A stretch of 12,653 bases of DNA from Euryarchaeota archaeon UBA538 (GTDB lineage: Archaea; Thermoplasmatota; Poseidoniia; Poseidoniales; Thalassarchaeaceae), in contig DALC01000032.1 in the NCBI GenBank assembly GCA_002499325.1, positions 38,489 through 51,141 of the forward strand, written 5' to 3'. The position numbers and the translations under genes are program-made. Of the stretch, positions 1-11,982 are shown piece after piece (within the stretch, counting starts at the first letter, position 1; each line of letters starts with the position of its first letter). The notes under the pieces are model-generated. The model was given only the letters and a program-made list of their open reading frames with translations, made no database searches and had not been told where the DNA came from.

Positions 1-864
1 TGCGAACTCTATCCTCCGAATATCGGCATCCAACATGTATACGTATCCTGAGAACTCTTGTCCGAGAGTAAGTGGAACTGCATCCATGAGATGTGTTCTA
101 CCAATCTTGACAATTGAGGAAAACTCCTGCGCTTTAGCCTCCAAAGAGTCCCTTAGATGATGCACTGAGGGTAGTAGTTGGTTCGTGATTTGCTCGGCTG
201 AAGATATGTGCATCGCTGTTGGAAATGTGTCATTACTAGACTGTGCCCTGTTCACATGATCATTTGGGTGGACGGGAGTCTTACTACCCAGTTCTCCTCC
301 TGCGAGCTCAATTGCCCTATTCGCAATGACTTCATTTGCATTCATGTTTGTTTGAGTGCCTGATCCTGTCTGCCAAATTCTAAGTGGGAAGTGGCCGTCA
401 AGACTTCCTGAAATTACCTCATCGCATGACGAAGAAATCAGAGAGGCGATGTTGCTATCCAGCTGATCCAGTTGGGAGTTGGTTTCTGCCGCTGCTTTCT
501 TTAGAATACCGAAGGCTCTGATCATTGCCCTTGGCATTATGTCGTCACCGATATCGAAGTTCTCAAGTGATCTGGCTGTCTGAGCTCCATAGTATCTATC
601 TGCAGGTACTACCACTTCTCCCATGGTATCAATCTCGATCCTATTTTCATCTGGATTAGCCCTAGCAGATCTCTGATGGGTTGAGACTTTGATGTCCTCA
701 TGGTGAGCATTTCCTGACGAAAGGCCTTCTTCAATCATCTTAGAAATTGTAGCAGACCTTCCCCTCGTCTTTCCCTTACCCACTCTACGGTCTAGCTTCC
801 TAGCGGTTTCCTCTGGAATACTAATACTGATTATCCTACGATCGCCTACGCGGTGCTTTGCCAT
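1..864 (-). CDS. fumC: Class II fumarate hydratase with N-terminal ribbon-helix-helix domain (partial, C-terminus beyond left edge)
   Basis: Fumarase interconverts fumarate and L-malate in the TCA cycle. The visible 288 residues are all in one frame, read on the minus strand from an ATG at 864-862. Residues about 79-288 are class II fumarase: DTMGEV near 79-84, YYGAQT 91-96, GSGTQTNMN 167-175, HPNDHVN 199-205, [12 protein letters not shown] 209-220 and GRTHLMDA 255-262, whose His258 matches a catalytic His of the family. SSNDTF and HPNDHVN favour fumarase over aspartase. The mobile GSSxMPxKxN loop lies off the window. Residues about 9-50 are not fumarase. They look like a ribbon-helix-helix domain: strand RIISISIP (10-17), helix [12 protein letters not shown] (18-29), basic turn, helix [12 protein letters not shown] (37-48). 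A hydrophilic linker (51-74) joins the two. An in-frame TAA lies seven codons upstream (885-883), so 864 is the first possible ATG in this frame. The fumarase identity is very secure; the RHH assignment is by pattern only. Confidence 0.93.
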
Positions 865-882
865 ATGTTCGGCATTAATTAC

Positions 883-924: not shown

Positions 925-1410
925 TTAAAATCTCTCAACCTTGATAATCTTCTGAGGATTGAATGGCCTGTCTCCTGGCTGAGTATCGCAGTTCTCGATT
1001 TTGTGAACATTTTCCATTCCGTTGACAACCTTTCCGAATACGGCATGATTACCATCAAGCCATGGCGTGGGGACGGTGGTCAGGAAGAACTGGGAGCCAC
1101 CGGTGTTGGGGCCAGCATTGGCCATAGAGAACAGTCCTGGAGTGTCGTGACTCTTAGCCAGTGCTGATGCCTCGCAAGGAATCTTCCAACCAGGACCTCC
1201 AGTTCCAGCTCTTCCATTGTGTGGGTCTCTGGAGTGAGGGCATCCTCCTTGAATCATGAAATCCTTGATAACCCTGTGAAAATGTAGTCCGTTGTAGAAC
1301 CCATCATCCACAAGTTTGAGGAAGTTTCCTGTGGTCTCTGGACAGTCTTCGGTGAAGAGCTCAATATCTATTGGTCCGGCGCTTGTCGTCATTCTAACTG
1401 TGGTAGGCAT
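925..1410 (-). CDS. Cyclophilin-type peptidyl-prolyl cis-trans isomerase
   Basis: This 161-residue single-domain protein catalyses cis-trans isomerisation of Xaa-Pro bonds and assists protein folding. It has the cyclophilin active-site block FHRVIKDFMIQGG (44-56, catalytic Arg46, Gln54), then FSMANAGPNTGGSQFF (94-109) and PWLDGNHAVFG (117-127). Trp118 is at the position that contacts cyclosporin in sensitive cyclophilins. There is no signal peptide or membrane segment, so it is probably cytoplasmic. The length is typical of minimal cyclophilins. The ATG at 1410 gives six residues before a second Met (Met7); either could be the start, since the domain proper begins near residue 12. It lies upstream of the fumarase gene on the same strand, but the fumarase seems to have its own promoter. 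Confidence 0.95.
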   Translation of the reverse strand: MPTTVRMTTSAGPIDIELFTEDCPETTGNFLKLVDDGFYNGLHFHRVIKDFMIQGGCPHSRDPHNGRAGTGGPGWKIPCEASALAKSHDTPGLFSMANAGPNTGGSQFFLTTVPTPWLDGNHAVFGKVVNGMENVHKIENCDTQPGDRPFNPQKIIKVERF

Positions 1411-2704: not shown

Positions 2705-5700
2705 ATGGTTGAGCAAAGTGAATCGGTGTCGAAGTATGATTCAGATAGGCTCTCATCAGAAGTTGAATACTACCAAGAATGGCTTGATTTGAGGACTCAG
2801 GAAGTATACGACATAGCTCTCCAAGCCAAGGCAAAGGGGCTTGACTTTAGCACTGAAATAGAAATCCCCCGAGCCGCTGATTTGGCGAGTAGGACTGAGA
2901 AACTTCTCGAAGAGTATCTGAAGGGACTGCAGATAGAGGATGACCTTCGAGCAATACTGCTGATAACTGACAGAGAGAGTGCGTCTATCCAGATTGCAGT
3001 TAATGTGGCAAAACGGATGTATGAGCGTGACGGAGATCTCCGAGAGGCAATAGATTGTGGACTAAGAGTTGGCCTGGCTGTGCTTACAGAAGCTGTTCTT
3101 GTAGCGCCACTAGATGGTATTGGTGCGGTCAGGATTCTCAATAATCCAGATGGCTCAGAGTTTCTTTCAATTGATTTCTGCGGACCAATAAGGGCCGCTG
3201 GAGGAACTGCTCAAGCTCTATGCGTACTGATTGGTGACATGATCAGACGTGAGCTTGGTCTGGGGAGGTATAATCCGTCCACAAGAGAGGTGGAAAGAGT
3301 GAAGGAAGAGTTTGGATTATACAGAGTTGGACTTCAGTACAAACCTCCCCCTGAGGAAGTAGAGATAATCGTTAGGGCCTGTCCAGTAATGGTTAACGGA
3401 GAGGAGACTGAGAAGCAGGAGTGTGCTGGATTCAAGGAGGTCAGGAACATACAGAACGAGAATGGTTCATTCAGGACTAGGGTTCGAGGTGGAGTGATGT
3501 TGGTTATCGGTGAAGGTTTATGCCTCAAGGCTCCAAAAATTGTTAAGCACACAGAAAGAATGGAGATTCCCGGATGGGAATTTATCTCTCAGTTTGCTAG
3601 TAAAGGGAAGAGCGATGAGGGCGATTCTGATATCTTCAAAAGCAGGCAAATTACTGAGATTTCAAGATACATGGATGATGTAATTGCTGGAAGACCTATT
3701 TTTGGTGAGCCCGGCGAACCTGGGGGATTTAGGCTTAGATATGGAAGAAGTAGAGCTACTGGATTGGCGGCTGCTGGTTTGAATCCAGTTTCTATGGAGG
3801 CGGCAGGTGGTTTCCTATCGGTTGGAACTCAGATGAAAATTGAACGACCTGGGAAGGCATGTGCAGTTACTCCTTGTACTGATATCGATGGGCCCATGGT
3901 AATTCTTGATGATGGTGAGTTTAGGCGAGTACACACCCTAGATGAGTGGAAGTTGATTCGAGAGAGAGTGATTTCAGTTTGGGATAATGGAGAGATTCTG
4001 ATGGGTTTCGGTGAGTTTCTTGAGAACAACAAGAATCTTGTTCCCTCAGCTTACAACAGAGATTGGTGGGCTGCGGACCTTCTAGATTCATTGGACCACC
4101 CTCAGAAGGTCTCAACCTTTGCAGAGATTATGGGGGTCGGGCTTGATACTCTGCCCAAAGGGTTGCCGTTTAACGGCGCAATAAATCGAGGGGGGGAGGA
4201 TGCTCTCGAGAGGGAGTGGAGGAAGCGGGAATGGTATCTTTTTCTGAGAGATATAGATTTGACTTGGCAACAGTCCAAGGGAATATCTGAGGCTTTTGGG
4301 ACAGCAGTCCCTCCCCCTTGGAATCTATGGTGGTCTGATCTTCCAATTTCAATTACTAAACCTCTCATCAAAGAATTGGCTGGGTCAGAAATACAAGAAA
4401 GTGGCTTGAGGATAAGGGGGGCTTCAAGGGGTTGGAGTCCTGATTCCCTGAAGGAAATAGACACGACGTATGAGCTTGACTTTGACATGTGGCCTTCATG
4501 GATGTCAGTCAGAAATCATGGAATTGTGAAATCGTGCCTTCTGACTCTTGGTTTGCAGCACTATCATGAGGCTGGAGATATCGTAATATCATCCAACTGG
4601 GAAGGTCTCCTGGAGGGACTAGGACTGATGAATGATGAAGGTGTAGTAGTTAGCTCAATGGATGCAATGGGGCATATCGACGATAGGCTGGTCAGGGTTA
4701 GTGAAGCCAAGAAGGTAGTGCAAGCTGAGGGCAAGAGAAAGAGTGAGCTGGAGAATAGAAGGGGGCTTGCCAGAGTTAGGGCAACCACACTAGCTATGCA
4801 ACAAGGAAAGGGTACACTAGAGACAGAGGCGATAGGAGAAGAAGCCGCACAGGGAATCTCTGATCCCGGGCCCGAGAATGTAACCTCTCTGAATAGATCA
4901 GTTTCGTTACTAGATGATCACGTCGTTGATGGTTCGTTGTGGCTAGTTAGGAAGCTATCCTCAATGAGATGGGAAGACTCTGCAACGTGTAGAATTGGAG
5001 CTAGAATGGGCAGACCGGAAAAGTCAGGGGTTAGAGAGATGAAACCATTGGTCCACTCACTGTACCCTATTGCTGAGAGTGGGGGGCCCCAAAGGCTCCT
5101 AGGAGAGGCGTCCTCCAAAGGAAGTATTAGAGTTCAGATGGGTCCGAGAATTTGTAGTAAATGTGGTTCAGAGTCTCCACATATCAGGTGTCATGTCAGA
5201 CCTGATCCCAACGTGGCCAAGGAGTGTGGAGGAAGAACGGAAGTCCGCAAGAGTCGGGGAGGCAAAAGGAGGCGTCGAGGCGAGTTTACGACAGTCCCAG
5301 TCTCATCTATTCTTGAAGTAAAAAGGAGAGCTTTGGGCTTGGACAAGCTTCCTTCGAAGATTAAAGCTGTGAAGGGTCTGGTTTCGATTGGACAGTCCCC
5401 AGAACCATTGGAGAAGGGCATTCTAAGAGCGAAGCATGGGGTTTCTGTCTTCAGAGACGGAACCTCGAGGTATGATATGAGTGATGTACCAGTAACACAC
5501 TTCAAACCGATAGAGATTGGTACATCCTGGGAGGCTCTCGCTGAACTGGGATACACTCATGATATTCGAGGAAGCATCCTGAAATCTGATAACCAGATGT
5601 TGGAGTTGCTTCCACAGGACTTTATCCCGTCAATAAGATCCAAAGATCACCTTCTCGCTACTTGTAATTTCGTGGATGAGCTTCTAGTTAGATTCTATAA

Positions 5701-6679
5701 AATGGAGCCATTCTATAACGCGAACAGTGAGAAAGACTTAGTCGGAAGATTGGCCATTGGTCTTGCACCACATACTTCTGGAGGAGTGCTGTGTCGCTTA
5801 ATCGGCTGGACTTCCTCATCTGCTGGATACGCTCATCCACTTTTCCACGCTGCTAAAAGAAGGAATTGTGATGGAGACGAGGATAGCATAATGATGCTCA
5901 TGGATGGTTTGCTAAATTTCTCCAAGGAAATTCTACCTGCAGGCAGAGGGGGCAGGATGGATGCTCCTCTAGTTCTGACGACAAGGCTGAATCCGATGGA
6001 AATAGACAAGGAGGCATTGAACGTGGATTGCTCTTGGAGCTATTCTCGGGACTTCTATGAGGCTACATTGTCTCAGCCCCACCCCAACGAAGCATCGGAC
6101 TTAGTGGACCTAGTAAGCGACAGACTGGGCAGTATTGGAGATCTGCGAGGATATGGATGGACGCATGATTCTGGTGACTTGGATTCTGGGCCGGTGAATT
6201 CTGCGTACAAGACTCTTGTGAGTATGACTGACAAGATGGGTGAGCAATTAGCACTTGGAAGTAGACTCAGGTCAGTCAGTGTGGACAGAGTGGCATCGCA
6301 AGTCATTGAATCTCATTTCCTCCCAGATATGAGAGGCAATATGATGGCATTCACCAGGCAGAAAGTACGATGTGTGAAATGTGGGCACTCTTATCGAAGA
6401 ATGCCTCTAGCTGGCAAGTGCGTGCAGAGGGCATCGGGAATCTCGGGCGGTCCGAGATTCTCTAGTTCCGATGACGGGATTGCGACTTGCGGGGGGAATG
6501 TCGTCCTAACAGTCTCTGAGGGGGCAGTCAGGAAATATATCCAGGTTACCAAGGAAGTAATGGAAAGCTACGGAGTTGACAATTACACCAAACAGCGTGT
6601 TGGATGGATGTCTGATAGTGTAGACTCATTATTCAATAATGACAGAGTGACAGTTATGACTCTGGAAGACTTCCTATGA
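2705..6679 (+). CDS. polC: DNA polymerase D large (catalytic) subunit DP2
   Basis: The polymerising subunit of archaeal family-D replicative DNA polymerase, which works with the DP1 exonuclease subunit (not in this window). The 1324 residues span the whole family. GPIRAAGGTAQAL lies at 160-172. The MGRPEK motif lies in the middle of the protein. A first zinc site has Cys817, Cys820, Cys829 and Cys841, followed by a basic stretch (KRRRR, 854-858). PFYNANSEKDLVGRLAIG comes next, and the catalytic NCDGDEDS motif carries Asp1056 and Asp1058. A C-terminal zinc site has Cys1223, Cys1226, Cys1239 and Cys1262. The end, TLEDFL, resembles a weak PCNA-interacting (PIP-like) tail. Inteins are common at the catalytic motif of DP2 in other archaea; here the motif is uninterrupted. 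The region about 690-760 is poorly conserved and probably a linker. The ATG at 2705 fits the family N-terminus. It converges with mptE with no gap. Confidence 0.98.
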   Translation: MVEQSESVSKYDSDRLSSEVEYYQEWLDLRTQEVYDIALQAKAKGLDFSTEIEIPRAADLASRTEKLLEEYLKGLQIEDDLRAILLITDRESASIQIAVNVAKRMYERDGDLREAIDCGLRVGLAVLTEAVLVAPLDGIGAVRILNNPDGSEFLSIDFCGPIRAAGGTAQALCVLIGDMIRRELGLGRYNPSTREVERVKEEFGLYRVGLQYKPPPEEVEIIVRACPVMVNGEETEKQECAGFKEVRNIQNENGSFRTRVRGGVMLVIGEGLCLKAPKIVKHTERMEIPGWEFISQFASKGKSDEGDSDIFKSRQITEISRYMDDVIAGRPIFGEPGEPGGFRLRYGRSRATGLAAAGLNPVSMEAAGGFLSVGTQMKIERPGKACAVTPCTDIDGPMVILDDGEFRRVHTLDEWKLIRERVISVWDNGEILMGFGEFLENNKNLVPSAYNRDWWAADLLDSLDHPQKVSTFAEIMGVGLDTLPKGLPFNGAINRGGEDALEREWRKREWYLFLRDIDLTWQQSKGISEAFGTAVPPPWNLWWSDLPISITKPLIKELAGSEIQESGLRIRGASRGWSPDSLKEIDTTYELDFDMWPSWMSVRNHGIVKSCLLTLGLQHYHEAGDIVISSNWEGLLEGLGLMNDEGVVVSSMDAMGHIDDRLVRVSEAKKVVQAEGKRKSELENRRGLARVRATTLAMQQGKGTLETEAIGEEAAQGISDPGPENVTSLNRSVSLLDDHVVDGSLWLVRKLSSMRWEDSATCRIGARMGRPEKSGVREMKPLVHSLYPIAESGGPQRLLGEASSKGSIRVQMGPRICSKCGSESPHIRCHVRPDPNVAKECGGRTEVRKSRGGKRRRRGEFTTVPVSSILEVKRRALGLDKLPSKIKAVKGLVSIGQSPEPLEKGILRAKHGVSVFRDGTSRYDMSDVPVTHFKPIEIGTSWEALAELGYTHDIRGSILKSDNQMLELLPQDFIPSIRSKDHLLATCNFVDELLVRFYKMEPFYNANSEKDLVGRLAIGLAPHTSGGVLCRLIGWTSSSAGYAHPLFHAAKRRNCDGDEDSIMMLMDGLLNFSKEILPAGRGGRMDAPLVLTTRLNPMEIDKEALNVDCSWSYSRDFYEATLSQPHPNEASDLVDLVSDRLGSIGDLRGYGWTHDSGDLDSGPVNSAYKTLVSMTDKMGEQLALGSRLRSVSVDRVASQVIESHFLPDMRGNMMAFTRQKVRCVKCGHSYRRMPLAGKCVQRASGISGGPRFSSSDDGIATCGGNVVLTVSEGAVRKYIQVTKEVMESYGVDNYTKQRVGWMSDSVDSLFNNDRVTVMTLEDFL

Positions 6680-7510
6680 TCAGTAATGAATATCCAGTGC
6701 CTGTAGAATAGTTTTCATCCACTGTAATTTGACTAGTTTCTTTTCCTTTTCAGTGGTTCCTGACCACCTACCGACCTTGTTTGTATTTGTCCCTAACATG
6801 GTTATCCTATCTATTGGAATTCCCAATGATGTAGCTATACATGCGGCCCTATCTCCGTCTGTGAATCCGCCTGGATTGTGCATACCAGCTATCTCCCCAG
6901 TTGTCTGATGTGTCAATATCAGAGGAGGAGGTGAGGGTGCATTCTTTGCAATTTCCAGAAGGTCCCTCCAGTCATTCTCATTATCTCCGTGTGCGTGTAA
7001 GAAAACTGTTTTTCCCCTGTTAACCGCCTCAATGGTACCCTCTCCTCCGTCTGCATCTGAAACTATGAAAGCCAATCTTGACCATGCCCTCTCTGCTGTC
7101 GTTTTGGGTAACAGAGAGATTGCTCCGGCGGCTCCATCGGCGGCAATCAAAAGGGTTGGTGACTCTAGAGCACTGGTTAGTTCCTCTTTGTCTATTGCAG
7201 CTCCTAGAATAGCAACATTTTGCTCTCTGAGAACGAGTCTCCTCTGAATATTTGCCACAGTTGCAGCCCTATTGGGCCTCCTCCATTGCTCTACTCCTGA
7301 CTGCTCAACAGTAGAAAGAAGATTCTTCGCACTTGAAATATCGTCAGATTCTTGCCACCCAAAATGGCTCCTGAATTCATCTTGAATTGTTACAAGAAGT
7401 TCAAGAGAGGGTATTAGATCGGTGGGTGGCCTAGACATGTTTCTCCAGTGGAAGGGGTCGGTGATTGTTGAATAACCCTCTTGGTTCTCTGGGTATCGTG
7501 CCCATCCCAC
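6680..7510 (-). CDS. mptE: 6-hydroxymethyl-7,8-dihydropterin pyrophosphokinase, MptE-like
   Basis: An archaeal DUF115/MptE-type enzyme, expected to transfer pyrophosphate from ATP to 6-hydroxymethyl-7,8-dihydropterin in pterin (folate or methanopterin-like) cofactor synthesis. It is structurally unrelated to bacterial FolK. Visible family motifs are AADGA (123-127), VSDADGG (150-156), HAHGDN (172-177) and NPGGFTDGDRA (212-222), followed by a C-terminal Lys-rich KEKKLVKLQWMK helix. The frame opens with GTG at 7510, giving 276 residues. Met25 (ATG at 7438) gives 252 residues and avoids overlap with priL. The residues before Met25 show no family pattern, so the shorter form is more likely. The stop codon touches the polC stop codon (convergent pair). 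Exact substrate is by family analogy. Confidence 0.88.
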   Translation of the reverse strand: MGWARYPENQEGYSTITDPFHWRNMSRPPTDLIPSLELLVTIQDEFRSHFGWQESDDISSAKNLLSTVEQSGVEQWRRPNRAATVANIQRRLVLREQNVAILGAAIDKEELTSALESPTLLIAADGAAGAISLLPKTTAERAWSRLAFIVSDADGGEGTIEAVNRGKTVFLHAHGDNENDWRDLLEIAKNAPSPPPLILTHQTTGEIAGMHNPGGFTDGDRAACIATSLGIPIDRITMLGTNTNKVGRWSGTTEKEKKLVKLQWMKTILQALDIHY

Positions 7511-8625
7511 TCAAGCCACCCATAATCGAAGATCGGGTGATATTATCGAGATACCCAATGCTACCACAAGGCAGGAACCACATACGAGAAGTTCTGAGGG
7601 AAAATGGGGTCACAGTAGGAGATTTGGTGGGGGCTCCTTGGCTTGAGGAGGTGCGAGCCAGGGGTAGGTTGCGACTACTGGAGTCTGTAATGCACAAAGA
7701 CGGGGTAGATGATGCAACAACCGTAGATCTATCAAGTGAAGCGGGTAAAATGACTGAGACTCTTTCATTCCTTCATGCTATGCTCGTAGTCTGTGCTTCT
7801 TTCGATGAGCGCTTGTTGGCAAGATGGATAGAGGGGGAGGCTAGCAGAGCGGACGGACTGTTCGGCAGGGATGCAACTAATTTCTCAACAATTTGCTCTA
7901 GTTATCTTTCTGGAATCAAAATAGAAGAAGGGGACCATACGATCTACTGGGTACCTGTTTCTGACTTCATCGAGCTCTGCCCAAAAATTTCAGGGCCATA
8001 TTGGAGATTGGCTAACAGGCCAGTCAGAGACGGTTGGGTTAGAATGGATCCAGCCTCTGGAGAGAATAGCAGGGAGAGGACATCTAGGTTGCTAAAAGAG
8101 AGAGTAAGGGGGTACCTTGACGCGACTTGTAGACATCGTATGGAGAAAATGAGTGATGAATTTGCCGCACAGTTCTCAGACTCAGTGGAGAGGATAGTCG
8201 GAATGTTGGCCCTACGGGTAAAAGAAGAGATGCCTGTCTCGGCCGCTGTTAGGGAAGATTGGCCTCCCTGTTTTGAGTCAGCGGTGTCAGAGCTTAACCA
8301 GGGGGTCAACGTTAATCATGTGGGCAGAGTTTTTCTGGCTTCATTCTCCAAAGCTTTAGGTCATTCCCAAGAGCAGACCTGTGGGTTTTTCTCTGGAGCT
8401 CCTGACTATAGCCCAGATACAACCTCATATCAGGTTGCTCATATATACGAAAGAGAATATACCCCTCATGGTTGTGCAGCCTTGAAGACCAATGCTCGCT
8501 GTCCAGTTGGTGTAGGAGATGACACACTCTGCGATCAGGAGTGGTTGACGCACCCTCTGAAGTACATCCGAGCCAAGCAACGAAGGAGATACAACGAATC
8601 TGGCGAGTCCAGCACAAGTGACTAA
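7465..8625 (+). CDS. priL: DNA primase large subunit with 4Fe-4S cluster domain
   Basis: The non-catalytic subunit of archaeal/eukaryotic-type primase. It partners PriS in RNA primer synthesis and carries an Fe-S domain needed for initiation. The N-terminal part begins with the typical LSRYPMLPQGR segment. The C-terminal part holds the four cluster cysteines, numbered from the TTG at 7465: Cys269 (PPCFE), Cys337 (HGCAALK), Cys346 (ARCPV) and Cys356 (TLCDQ). The SYQVAHIY motif lies between the first two and HPLKYI follows the last. Start is uncertain: TTG 7465 (386 residues), GTG 7498 or GTG 7537. The last gives an N-terminus (residue 25 of the long form) just before the conserved LSRYP and leaves mptE undisturbed. 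DUF373 follows after 71 bp on the same strand. Confidence 0.92.
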   Translation: MLNNPLGSLGIVPIPLKPPIIEDRVILSRYPMLPQGRNHIREVLRENGVTVGDLVGAPWLEEVRARGRLRLLESVMHKDGVDDATTVDLSSEAGKMTETLSFLHAMLVVCASFDERLLARWIEGEASRADGLFGRDATNFSTICSSYLSGIKIEEGDHTIYWVPVSDFIELCPKISGPYWRLANRPVRDGWVRMDPASGENSRERTSRLLKERVRGYLDATCRHRMEKMSDEFAAQFSDSVERIVGMLALRVKEEMPVSAAVREDWPPCFESAVSELNQGVNVNHVGRVFLASFSKALGHSQEQTCGFFSGAPDYSPDTTSYQVAHIYEREYTPHGCAALKTNARCPVGVGDDTLCDQEWLTHPLKYIRAKQRRRYNESGESSTSD

Positions 8626-8696: not shown

Positions 8697-9881
8697 ATGG
8701 TACGAACTCTAGTACTGACAGTAGACCGAGATAATGATCTGGGTGTCAAGGCTGGTATTAGAGGCCCAGTAGTGGGCCGTAAGGCTACTCTTGCCGCTGC
8801 CTTGAGGCTTGGAATAGCCGATCCAGAAGAGTCTGATACTAATGCCATTCTAGGAGCTTTGCACCAACATGACCGTTTAGCTGAAGAGGCTATTGGTGAT
8901 GATGAGGTCCAAATCGCCTTACTAACAGGAGATGTCAGAGTCGGGTCCAGAAGTGATAGGGAAATTGCCACTCAGTTAGACGAGGTAATACAGGAGTTCC
9001 AACCAGATAAGGCGATTCTCATTACTGATGGGGCTGATGATGAGGAAGCACTCCCAATAATCACTTCCAGAGTCAGAGTCGACCATATCGAAAAAATAAT
9101 AGTCAGGCAGTCTAAGGGAATTGAGAGTACCTACTACTATGTCGTTAAGGCGATTGAGGACCCTCGTTGGAGAGCAAGACTACTAGTCCCAATAGCAACT
9201 GTGATGATCATTCTGGGTATCGGTCTTATCCTTCCATCGGATTACGGGAGCGCACTCATAGGAACTCTACCACTTATCATCGGGATATGGCTTCTTTCCA
9301 GAGGGCTTGGATGGGAGCAACAGCTTGACCGTCTTCTAAATGACATGCGCGCTGCAACGACTGGTAGCCTGCTGACCTCCATGCTGTGGGCCTTAGCACT
9401 GGTTTCAATGATAATTGCTGTTGTGACGGTAATACAGGTATTGTATGCCTCTAGCTCAGAGATAGACGCATATGCTTCCTCGATTTTATCCTCAACAACT
9501 AATTTCGATGTGAACGCTGTAAATAGTGACATTGCCGCGTGGGTAATCGCAATTGACAATGCTCTCTCCTGGATTCTTGTGGCGTTCTTCTCTCTCTTCC
9601 TGTCTTTGGGGGTGCTTAGGTGGAAGGAGGGTTCCTTCACCGGTCAGAGCATTATGCTTCTGGCTACTGGGTTCGTTGCTTACTTCGTGATTTCGGCTAT
9701 TAATGAGGTCTCACTCAGTATGCTGGGTGGGCAGGATGTAGATCTACGAGTGGAATCAGTGGTGGCAACGTGGTCTCTCCCGGTAATCGCGATTCTAGGA
9801 AGATACCTCCTGAGCGTTATCGTCGACTCCCTTTCGGAGGAGGATGAGGGAGGAAGAGGTAGCGAGTTTTGGGGGGTTTAG
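8697..9881 (+). CDS. DUF373 family archaeal membrane protein
   Basis: A 394-residue protein of the archaeal DUF373 family; biochemical function unknown. The soluble N-terminal half (1-160) carries the family hallmarks: LTVDRDNDLGVKAG (7-20), GPVVGR (23-28), LGIADPEESDTNA (38-50), LLTGD (75-79) and LITDGADDEE (108-117). The second half is hydrophobic, with about six likely membrane segments near 162-180, 185-201, 227-250, 280-305, 316-337 and 354-376, and ends in an acidic tail (SEEDEGGRG). The ATG at 8697 is preceded by a purine-rich GAGG that may act as a ribosome-binding site. It follows priL on the same strand and its stop overlaps the convergent zinc-ribbon gene by two to three bases. Acid-rich motifs in the soluble domain suggest nucleotide or metal binding, which is inference. 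Confidence 0.88.
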   Translation: MVRTLVLTVDRDNDLGVKAGIRGPVVGRKATLAAALRLGIADPEESDTNAILGALHQHDRLAEEAIGDDEVQIALLTGDVRVGSRSDREIATQLDEVIQEFQPDKAILITDGADDEEALPIITSRVRVDHIEKIIVRQSKGIESTYYYVVKAIEDPRWRARLLVPIATVMIILGIGLILPSDYGSALIGTLPLIIGIWLLSRGLGWEQQLDRLLNDMRAATTGSLLTSMLWALALVSMIIAVVTVIQVLYASSSEIDAYASSILSSTTNFDVNAVNSDIAAWVIAIDNALSWILVAFFSLFLSLGVLRWKEGSFTGQSIMLLATGFVAYFVISAINEVSLSMLGGQDVDLRVESVVATWSLPVIAILGRYLLSVIVDSLSEEDEGGRGSEFWGV

Positions 9882-10306
9882 TTCTCGAATGTCGATTCCA
9901 TCAAGCACGCAGGGCACTTCACCGAAATGGGCCTGACGGATGGAATCCCTAGTGCCGCATTGCAGTGTGGACAGGCTATGGCTTGGTTCACTTCAGACTG
10001 CCTCTTCTTTCCCGAGTGGCTCGGGTCATATGTGAATCTATATTTGTGAGTATTTTCCAAGAATCTAGGAGAGCCTTCTTTCTCGGCTTCTTGCCGTGAA
10101 AAATTACTTTCTCTTGTAGGTTGAGAGTGAGTGGTGGTTGGAGAATTTGTGGGCTTCACCCGTCCATTTTGAAATTCATCCAACTGCGAAAGAACCTCAC
10201 TTTTGGACAGTCCTAGTTCCCTGGAGGCTCTGTCTATCGCTAGTGTTCTCTCATAATCGCTCATGCCGACGAACTCCTGGAGTAGGACCGCAGGTATTCT
10301 TGACAT
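9878..10306 (-). CDS. Hypothetical protein with C-terminal zinc ribbon
   Basis: I do not recognise this 142-residue protein. The N-terminal part (1-46) is predicted to be helical; DRASRELGLSKSEVLSQLDEF (25-45) reads like a helix-turn-helix fragment but is too short to assign. Residues about 48-108 are Ser/Thr/Pro- and charge-rich, probably disordered. The C-terminus carries a four-cysteine zinc ribbon: ACPHC (Cys112, Cys115), 15 residues, then CPAC (Cys131, Cys134). The layout (helical head, flexible linker, zinc ribbon) is common in small archaeal regulatory or adaptor proteins. Start is the ATG at 10306-10304; Met15 is an alternative. It converges with the DUF373 gene and lies 61 bp downstream of the metK start direction's end, on the same strand as metK, which precedes it. 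Confidence 0.75.
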   Translation of the reverse strand: MSRIPAVLLQEFVGMSDYERTLAIDRASRELGLSKSEVLSQLDEFQNGRVKPTNSPTTTHSQPTRESNFSRQEAEKEGSPRFLENTHKYRFTYDPSHSGKKRQSEVNQAIACPHCNAALGIPSVRPISVKCPACLMESTFEN

Positions 10307-11715: not shown

Positions 11716-11982
11716 GTGTCCTCCGGTACAGACATGGAAGATGCAACCGCGCGTGTTGTATGGACTGGTTCCAGAGACGTGGCAGAGAATCTTTTGGAGT
11801 CTATTATGCCCGATGACCCTGATTCTTTCGAATCTGAGATAGTTGAGTCAGGAGCTGGAGTAAGGCTAACTATACTGGTCGCGTCTTCTGAGCTCAGTGA
11901 GCTACGTGCCACGGTTGATGATATCCTAGCCTGTCTATCCGCCGTAGAGGGTAGCTTGGAAGTACTGGGCGAAGAGCTTTGA
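11716..11982 (+). CDS. KEOPS complex Pcc1-like subunit
   Basis: A small protein (88 residues from GTG 11716) resembling Pcc1, the dimerising subunit of the KEOPS complex that makes the t6A37 modification of tRNA. The sequence follows the Pcc1 plan: strand TARVVWTG (11-18), helix DVAENLLESIMPDD (21-34), strands around EIVESGAGVRLTILVA (41-56) and the C-terminal helix with LRATVDDILACL (63-74), the most characteristic motif. An alternative start is ATG 11734 (residue 7), which leaves the domain intact. The assignment rests on length and this pattern; Pcc1 is weakly conserved. It is followed on the same strand by nadC after a 96-bp gap. Confidence 0.72.
   Translation: MSSGTDMEDATARVVWTGSRDVAENLLESIMPDDPDSFESEIVESGAGVRLTILVASSELSELRATVDDILACLSAVEGSLEVLGEEL

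Follow-up and report, generated by a model that had tools for sequence, protein, structure and literature searches.

The put regulon of PutA is divergent. Trifunctional PutA of enteric bacteria is an enzyme with a ribbon-helix-helix (RHH) domain that represses its own regulon, according to the sections of PMC5293562 drawn on here. RelB sets RHH dimers on adjacent palindromic half-sites on one face of the DNA (sections of PMC2812701). The archaeal transcription regulator CdrS, a single domain of 55 residues that controls ftsZ2, belongs to the RHH_1 Pfam family (sections of PMC7439475). In Bacillus subtilis, fumarase acts in the DNA damage response, beyond its TCA-cycle function, and is co-localised with DNA, as described in the excerpted text of PMC5711358.

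The window analysed here is a stretch of 12,653 nucleotides (contig DALC01000032.1, positions 38,489 to 51,141) from a genome of the order Poseidoniales. Tree neighbours that carry names make Thalassarchaeaceae its probable family. A DNA-binding-type domain and an enzyme share one chain here, and the fused relatives from the window's own family and from the other family show the same. The RHH-fumarase is a candidate autorepressor, which probably binds an AT-rich operator over its own TATA box and represses its own transcription. To our knowledge, this order of abundant marine archaea has no cultured member. Among 5.39 million open-access papers, with subscription journals and bioRxiv preprints mostly or wholly outside its coverage, no paper describing an RHH-fumarase fusion was found. 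Poseidoniales with fumarase returned nothing there, while the retrieved parts of records for fumarate hydratase with ribbon-helix-helix, and for Marine Group II with fumarase, dealt with unrelated matters.

The fused gene and its domains

The fused gene is a single open frame of 288 residues on the minus strand, from ATG 864 to base 1 of the window, with no stop, and it extends past the window edge. This agrees with the earlier note on this DNA, made from the letters alone, which described one uninterrupted frame from an RHH unit through a linker into fumarase. Its further statement that no in-frame ATG, GTG or TTG lies between the end of the RHH unit and Met81 held on reading by eye. In its own genome the frame runs into a run of N, so the 3′ half of the fumarase gene is only partly readable. 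Table 1 lists the parts of the chain, the upstream elements and the neighbouring genes, which include two replication genes beside the fumarase.

Table 1. Features of the window, in window positions. Values of pN/pS are from 252 pairs among 74 complete fused genes, and only the contrast between parts matters because synonymous change is near saturation.
Feature	Positions	Strand	Remarks
N-terminal arm, residues 1-10, ahead of the strand	835..864	-	mean pairwise identity 0.94, pN/pS 0.032 (74 fused genes)
RHH core, residues 11-48: RIISISIP strand, two helices, GRSATI turn	721..834	-	PF01402 match; pN/pS 0.141
Variable linker, about residues 49-74	643..720	-	24-27 residues, identity 0.25, pN/pS 0.615
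Class II fumarase, first part, residues 75-288	1..642	-	TIGR00979 and PF00206; pN/pS 0.078
Candidate operator TTATTAATAAGTAATTAA	875..892	-	ends 10 nt before ATG; sole exact match in genome
Half-sites TTATTAA and TAATTAA	886-892 and 875-881	-	11 bp apart
TATA-like core TTTATTAA	886..893	-	starts at -29 from ATG
Full AT-rich block TTTATTAATAAGTAATTAA	875..893	-	
Cyclophilin-type prolyl isomerase (PF00160)	925-1410	-	60 nt upstream of fumarase
DNA polymerase D large subunit DP2	2705-6679		replication gene
Open frame	6680-7510		no Pfam match at E<=0.001
DNA primase large-subunit domain	7465-8625		replication gene
DUF373 protein (PF04123)	8697-9881		E 8.7e-80
Open frame	9878-10306		no Pfam match at E<=0.001
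Open frame	11716-11982		no Pfam match at E<=0.001

The RHH unit is recognised by the RHH_1 profile (PF01402). Against the 288-residue piece the profile matches residues 12-45 (E 0.0045, 17.3 bits), and against residues 1-81 alone it matches residues 12-46 (E 7e-4, 19.8 bits). Scores of 19.8-20.0 bits place the window's sequence slightly under the Pfam gathering cut-off of 20.5. Among 47 aligned relatives, 41 match at E<=0.01, the best at 1.2e-5. The RHH unit that the earlier note saw at about residues 10-48 is thus confirmed, with a PF01402 match that is weak in the window alone and clearer in its relatives. A profile of the 47 relatives gave nine PDB chains at E<=1, all of them weak. EndoAI is the best of them (E 0.1), followed by NikR with seven sequences (E 0.32-0.36), and these eight are RHH proteins; the ninth is a designed protein (E 0.84).

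In the AlphaFold monomer model of 76 residues an extended stretch precedes two helices, at 18-28 and about 35-49; the mean pLDDT is 63 overall and 81 for residues 11-20. Residues 1-60 reach only about pLDDT 33-56 in a full-length model of the relative L077. Foldseek and VIA fold searches with the RHH monomer model returned no usable match, and the full-length L077 model returned fumarases only (best 50 matches among solved structures, 55-65% identity). The RHH fold expected for residues 1-60 is supported by sequence profiles and was not confidently reproduced by the monomer model, so the fold rests on the profiles. The review PMC4803016, in the portion used here, assigns the ribbon of simple RHH proteins to the dimer interface, and the poor monomer model is for this reason no strong negative. 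An RHH_1/CopG domain at the fumarase N-terminus, with a predicted dimeric DNA-reading ribbon, is the assignment that the profiles suggest.

The enzyme part is a class II fumarase by family profile, with predicted hydratase activity. TIGR00979 covers residues 75-287 (E 2.4e-101) with 339.8 bits for the first part of the enzyme, which is all that the window holds, and reaches 766.7-788.6 bits in three full-length fused relatives, above its cut-off of 664.75. PF00206 matches the window's fumarase part at E 1.2e-58. The loop GSSxMPxKxN, which we take to be the signature loop of class II fumarase, is invariant in 30 aligned fused proteins, and GSSIMPGKVN is legible beyond the N gap in the window's own genome. 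The linker keeps its length range in all 74 fused genes though its identity falls to the value in Table 1. Arm and RHH core are conserved and the linker is nearly free to change, which is the pattern that two working domains on a tether should leave in the sequences.

Occurrence of the fusion in the order

Among 292 genomes sampled from the window's order, 174 carry a match to the RHH stretch, and these fall in 16 of 22 genera; the extension, which the earlier note had left to a survey of Poseidoniales fumarases, is indeed shared. The open frames listed in those matches are 308-598 residues long, save one of 47 residues at a contig end. Genera g8, g15, g16, g17, g19 and g21 have no RHH match, and g12, g13 and g22 contain both RHH-fused and RHH-less genomes. 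The genomes compared are mostly incomplete metagenome assemblies. A second RHH match in G004, at a contig end, is probably a truncated copy.

In a sample of the phylum, 78 of 389 genomes match, and all belong to the window's order except G320. The latter has a single weak and doubtful match (E 3e-4), which spans a stop, and no clear gene is seen in the one frame translated there. The 23 fumarase-family proteins found at E<=1e-40 in 60 genomes of other orders of the phylum carry no RHH. Beyond the phylum the search relied on close sequence relatives, a scope that independent RHH-fumarase fusions elsewhere could escape. The simplest history suggested by these sequences is that the order gained the RHH domain once and later lost or replaced it several times, because the domain is missing from the fumarases of other orders and the RHH parts resemble each other even in the arm. 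The fumarase of the RHH-less genus g8 (L106-L111, L114, L118; family f1, which is the window's) groups with L094 of the other family at an unstarred support of 90, and some RHH-less copies may for this reason have come by transfer.

A protein search with residues 1-76 found 58 proteins, of which 56 have a precomputed fumarase-family domain. The 13 that were read all consist of arm, RHH, linker and fumarase start; several then stop early or enter unrelated sequence, as metagenome fragments do. Automatic annotation has met the domain, since database names include 'ribbon-helix-helix protein, CopG family, partial'. At least 58 fused loci came from scanning genome contigs; all are titled Euryarchaeota, Thermoplasmata, Poseidoniales or Marine Group II, and on reading the fusion was in one frame. 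Because the same long frame recurs across the order in many assemblies and in both families, the fusion is neither chance nor an assembly error.

Two proteins are probably or possibly chimeric. The metagenome protein P0041 has an RHH and a fumarase start followed by PCNA domain sequence, and its contig is probably chimeric. P0035 has an enzyme part 97% identical to that of the RHH-less G216 and an RHH like that of another genus; it was used only as a search probe. A search for short proteins with residues 1-52 gave 48 matches, and 14 of these were read for a stand-alone RHH paralogue as source or partner of the fusion. No separate regulator was found among the 14, which end in the RHH, the linker or the early fumarase, or read as frame-shifted linkers. 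P0093, P0101 and P0105 need not be contig ends, because their contigs exceed 200 kb, and they could represent sequence errors or real splits.

The upstream element and the proposed autorepression

An AT-rich block just 5′ of the ATG is common to the fused genes, and the RHH-less genes lack it. The element in the window's family is TTTATTAATAAnTAATTAA, which ends 10-13 nt before the fused ATG and lies at the TATA-box position. Its core, TTTAWTAA at -36..-15, is present in 86 of 89 distinct fused promoters and in none of the 33 RHH-less fumarase promoters of the order (Fisher 1e-26, kinship ignored). This count omits promoters shorter than 45 nt, those with N among the last 40 nt and duplicates of another promoter. 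The RHH-less starts are the nearest ATG, a guess, moved upstream by hand in about 5 of 33 (g8, L096); the core is absent from the whole 60 nt upstream of these genes as well. The three fused exceptions, L026, L086 and L088, lack the exact core, which counts against autorepression, and carry near variants of it.

The association was also followed on a maximum-likelihood tree of 98 enzyme parts, with 7 changes in RHH presence and 10 in the core. Supported branches provide five independent contrasts, and all five agree in 193 of 200 pairings (p 0.0625); in the other 7 pairings four contrasts agree and one is neutral. Full agreement of seven contrasts over all branches would correspond to p 0.016. 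The cyclophilin gene is the usual upstream neighbour of fused genes in relatives. The core is kept in 17 of 17 distinct fused promoters without a cyclophilin gene within 700 nt and in 44 of 47 with one, and is found in 0 of 5 RHH-less genes that still follow the cyclophilin. The link between element and domain is independent of the upstream gene. The 58 named fused loci contain 212 other ORFs of at least 150 aa that are free of upstream N and more than 60 nt from any locus end; with starts taken as the first ATG, none has the core at the equivalent place. Counting both strands of these loci, 73 core matches fall in the 60 nt before a fused ATG and 16 in the rest, while base composition predicts 39.5 in all.

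In the window's own 1.2-Mb genome, TTATTAATAANTAATTAA has two matches at up to 3 mismatches, namely the exact one here and one elsewhere with 3 mismatches; a reversed control pattern has six. Among the matches listed for 99 genomes of the family, each of the 21 exact ones is found 10-13 nt before a fused ATG, and 18 of the 22 with one mismatch are also found shortly upstream of one. The other four among the matches listed are in four different genomes, and the one in G133 may be a duplicated contig end, because it lies 344 nt upstream of the fused gene and ends in N. This positional analysis covers every listed match with no or one mismatch and part of those listed with two.

The half-site is repeated at +11 bp, with a mean of 4.28 of 7 bases against 2.68 for shuffled tails. 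At this spacing the match reaches 6 or more bases in 13 of 40 promoter clusters, and it does so in at most 4 clusters at any other spacing from 8 to 18. The second half-site is weaker in the remaining 27 clusters and degenerate in several genera, for example g5 and part of g13. The g12 element is TTTAATAATTAATTATTAA or close to it, and its commonest form is an 18-bp palindrome. It is present at the fumarase of all 15 fused g12 genomes with 0-1 mismatch, and the 15 RHH-less g12 genomes have two matches altogether, each with 3 mismatches. A second copy of the palindrome lies 46-47 bp further up in four fused g12 genomes (G041, G132, G180 and G270; g12 loci L152-L165). Genus g14 (L095, L100, L102-L104) has a divergent arm and RHH (MxKHNxG...RIVSVSIPEDVAQELDRWTG), and its half-sites are about 20 bp apart by eye; co-evolution of RHH domain and site in this genus is possible.

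Class II fumarases are tetramers, and a tetramer of the fused enzyme has four RHH units and therefore two dimers, which fits two half-sites one turn apart. The enzyme would assemble as a tetramer, its four tethered RHH units would pair into two dimers, and each dimer would grip one TTATTAA-type half-site. In leaderless archaeal genes a TATA box is expected at the position of the core, and a protein bound there should exclude TBP, which would amount to repression. The level of fumarase, and possibly a ligand or the assembly state, would then set fumarase synthesis. The enzyme probably turns its own gene down, because the site is at its own promoter where the RHH is present and not where it is lost. 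The earlier note had suggested that this fumarase may bind DNA and act on transcription or, more widely, in chromosome biology and the DNA damage response. The former part gains indirect support, with a likely target in its own promoter within 865-924; the latter does not, since the near-exact matches listed cluster at the fumarase promoter.

Both the step from site to binding and a control by fumarate or malate are inferred. A tentative extension, rather doubtful at present, is that the enzyme is its own transcription factor and flux sensor, in which fumarate/malate binding or tetramer assembly alters the grip of the two RHH dimers on the operator with its half-sites 11 bp apart. If this sensor reading is true, fumarase synthesis in this widespread marine archaeal order follows metabolic state directly, and sensor and operator have been lost together in several lineages. 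The protein and the proposed 18-bp site are both defined, and RHH-less genomes, some of them in genus g12 itself, provide natural controls, so the idea is testable without culturing.

The same element could be an unusually strong TATA region of a leaderless fumarase gene, with the RHH serving otherwise, in oligomer stabilisation or on another DNA target, and with domain and promoter lost jointly through 5′ deletions or gene replacement. The core does lie where a TATA box should be and is partly what such a box should be. RHH-less genes also differ over the entire 5′ region, some of them are perhaps replacements, as the grouping of g8 with L094 suggests, and domain and promoter could have gone together in single deletions or replacements. 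Against this, the core is missing at that place from the other ORFs of the fused loci and elsewhere in them is no commoner than base composition predicts. A TATA box needs no half-site repeat at 11 bp, and the element tracks the RHH domain, not the upstream gene. These points make a strong TATA region an unlikely explanation of the element.

It is very improbable that the RHH-fumarase is a wider regulator of several genes, perhaps those of the TCA cycle. The search counted mismatches, and two-mismatch matches elsewhere do exist, mostly in AT-rich genera, where the majority of such matches are away from the fumarase. In these genera, g10 among them, the reversed control is matched no less often, and little weight attaches to a single match; the near-exact matches listed contain no second conserved target, and the window's own genome has just one further match up to 3 mismatches. 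That the fusion is a frameshift or assembly artefact, or that translation really begins in the linker and leaves the RHH outside the enzyme, is hardly credible. Start codons are scattered through the linker at varying positions in 41 of 74 relatives, and among the short database proteins some end within the linker. Three of these come from contigs longer than 200 kb, which makes real splits possible in single genomes. The linkers of the other 33 relatives have no start codon at all, this long frame is present in many assemblies of both families, and conservation starts at ATG 864. A start at Met81 would drop the RIEIDT strand, which most RHH-less relatives compared have kept. Transcripts starting inside the linker, which the earlier note named as a way in which its fusion could fail, are unlikely, given the conserved TATA-like box some 29 nt upstream of the first ATG. 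Autorepression through the AT-rich operator is thus retained as the best explanation.

Comparison with known regulators and fumarases

FumC resembles the whole enzyme part, which has 55-65% identity to the best 50 solved fumarases. It differs in the N-terminal domain, given that no RHH is present in the 23 fumarase-family proteins from 60 genomes of other orders. The B. subtilis fumarase is similar in having a role outside the TCA cycle and near DNA. In its case L-malate signalling and RecN translation are named, and the excerpted text of PMC5711358 mentions no DNA-binding domain. The RHH-fumarase would bear on how fumarases gained roles near DNA.

RelB and Arc-type RHH repressors resemble the proposed system in their adjacent half-sites and in repressing their own promoter (sections of PMC2812701). 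They differ in being small stand-alone repressors without an enzyme, and the half-sites of RelB, as described in those sections, are 12 bp and of another sequence. CdrS is an archaeal regulator of the same RHH_1 family, and the sections of PMC7439475 drawn on here describe no enzyme attached to it.

PutA is similar in the fusion of an N-terminal RHH to a metabolic enzyme; in the sections consulted PutA is an autogenous repressor, a function proposed here for the RHH-fumarase. The enzymes are unrelated, since PutA oxidises proline and depends on flavin, whereas the RHH-fumarase would be a cofactor-free fumarase at an archaeal TATA promoter. PutA is switched by proline, flavin state and membrane binding, according to the sections of PMC5293562 drawn on. 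Proline dehydrogenase and P5C dehydrogenase domains are not the enzyme part here, which is a fumarase. If the RHH-fumarase is an autorepressor, it represents the case of a core TCA-cycle enzyme and of archaea, in contrast to the bacterial PutA. In the best explanation the RHH-fumarase would work like PutA, but it is no PutA.
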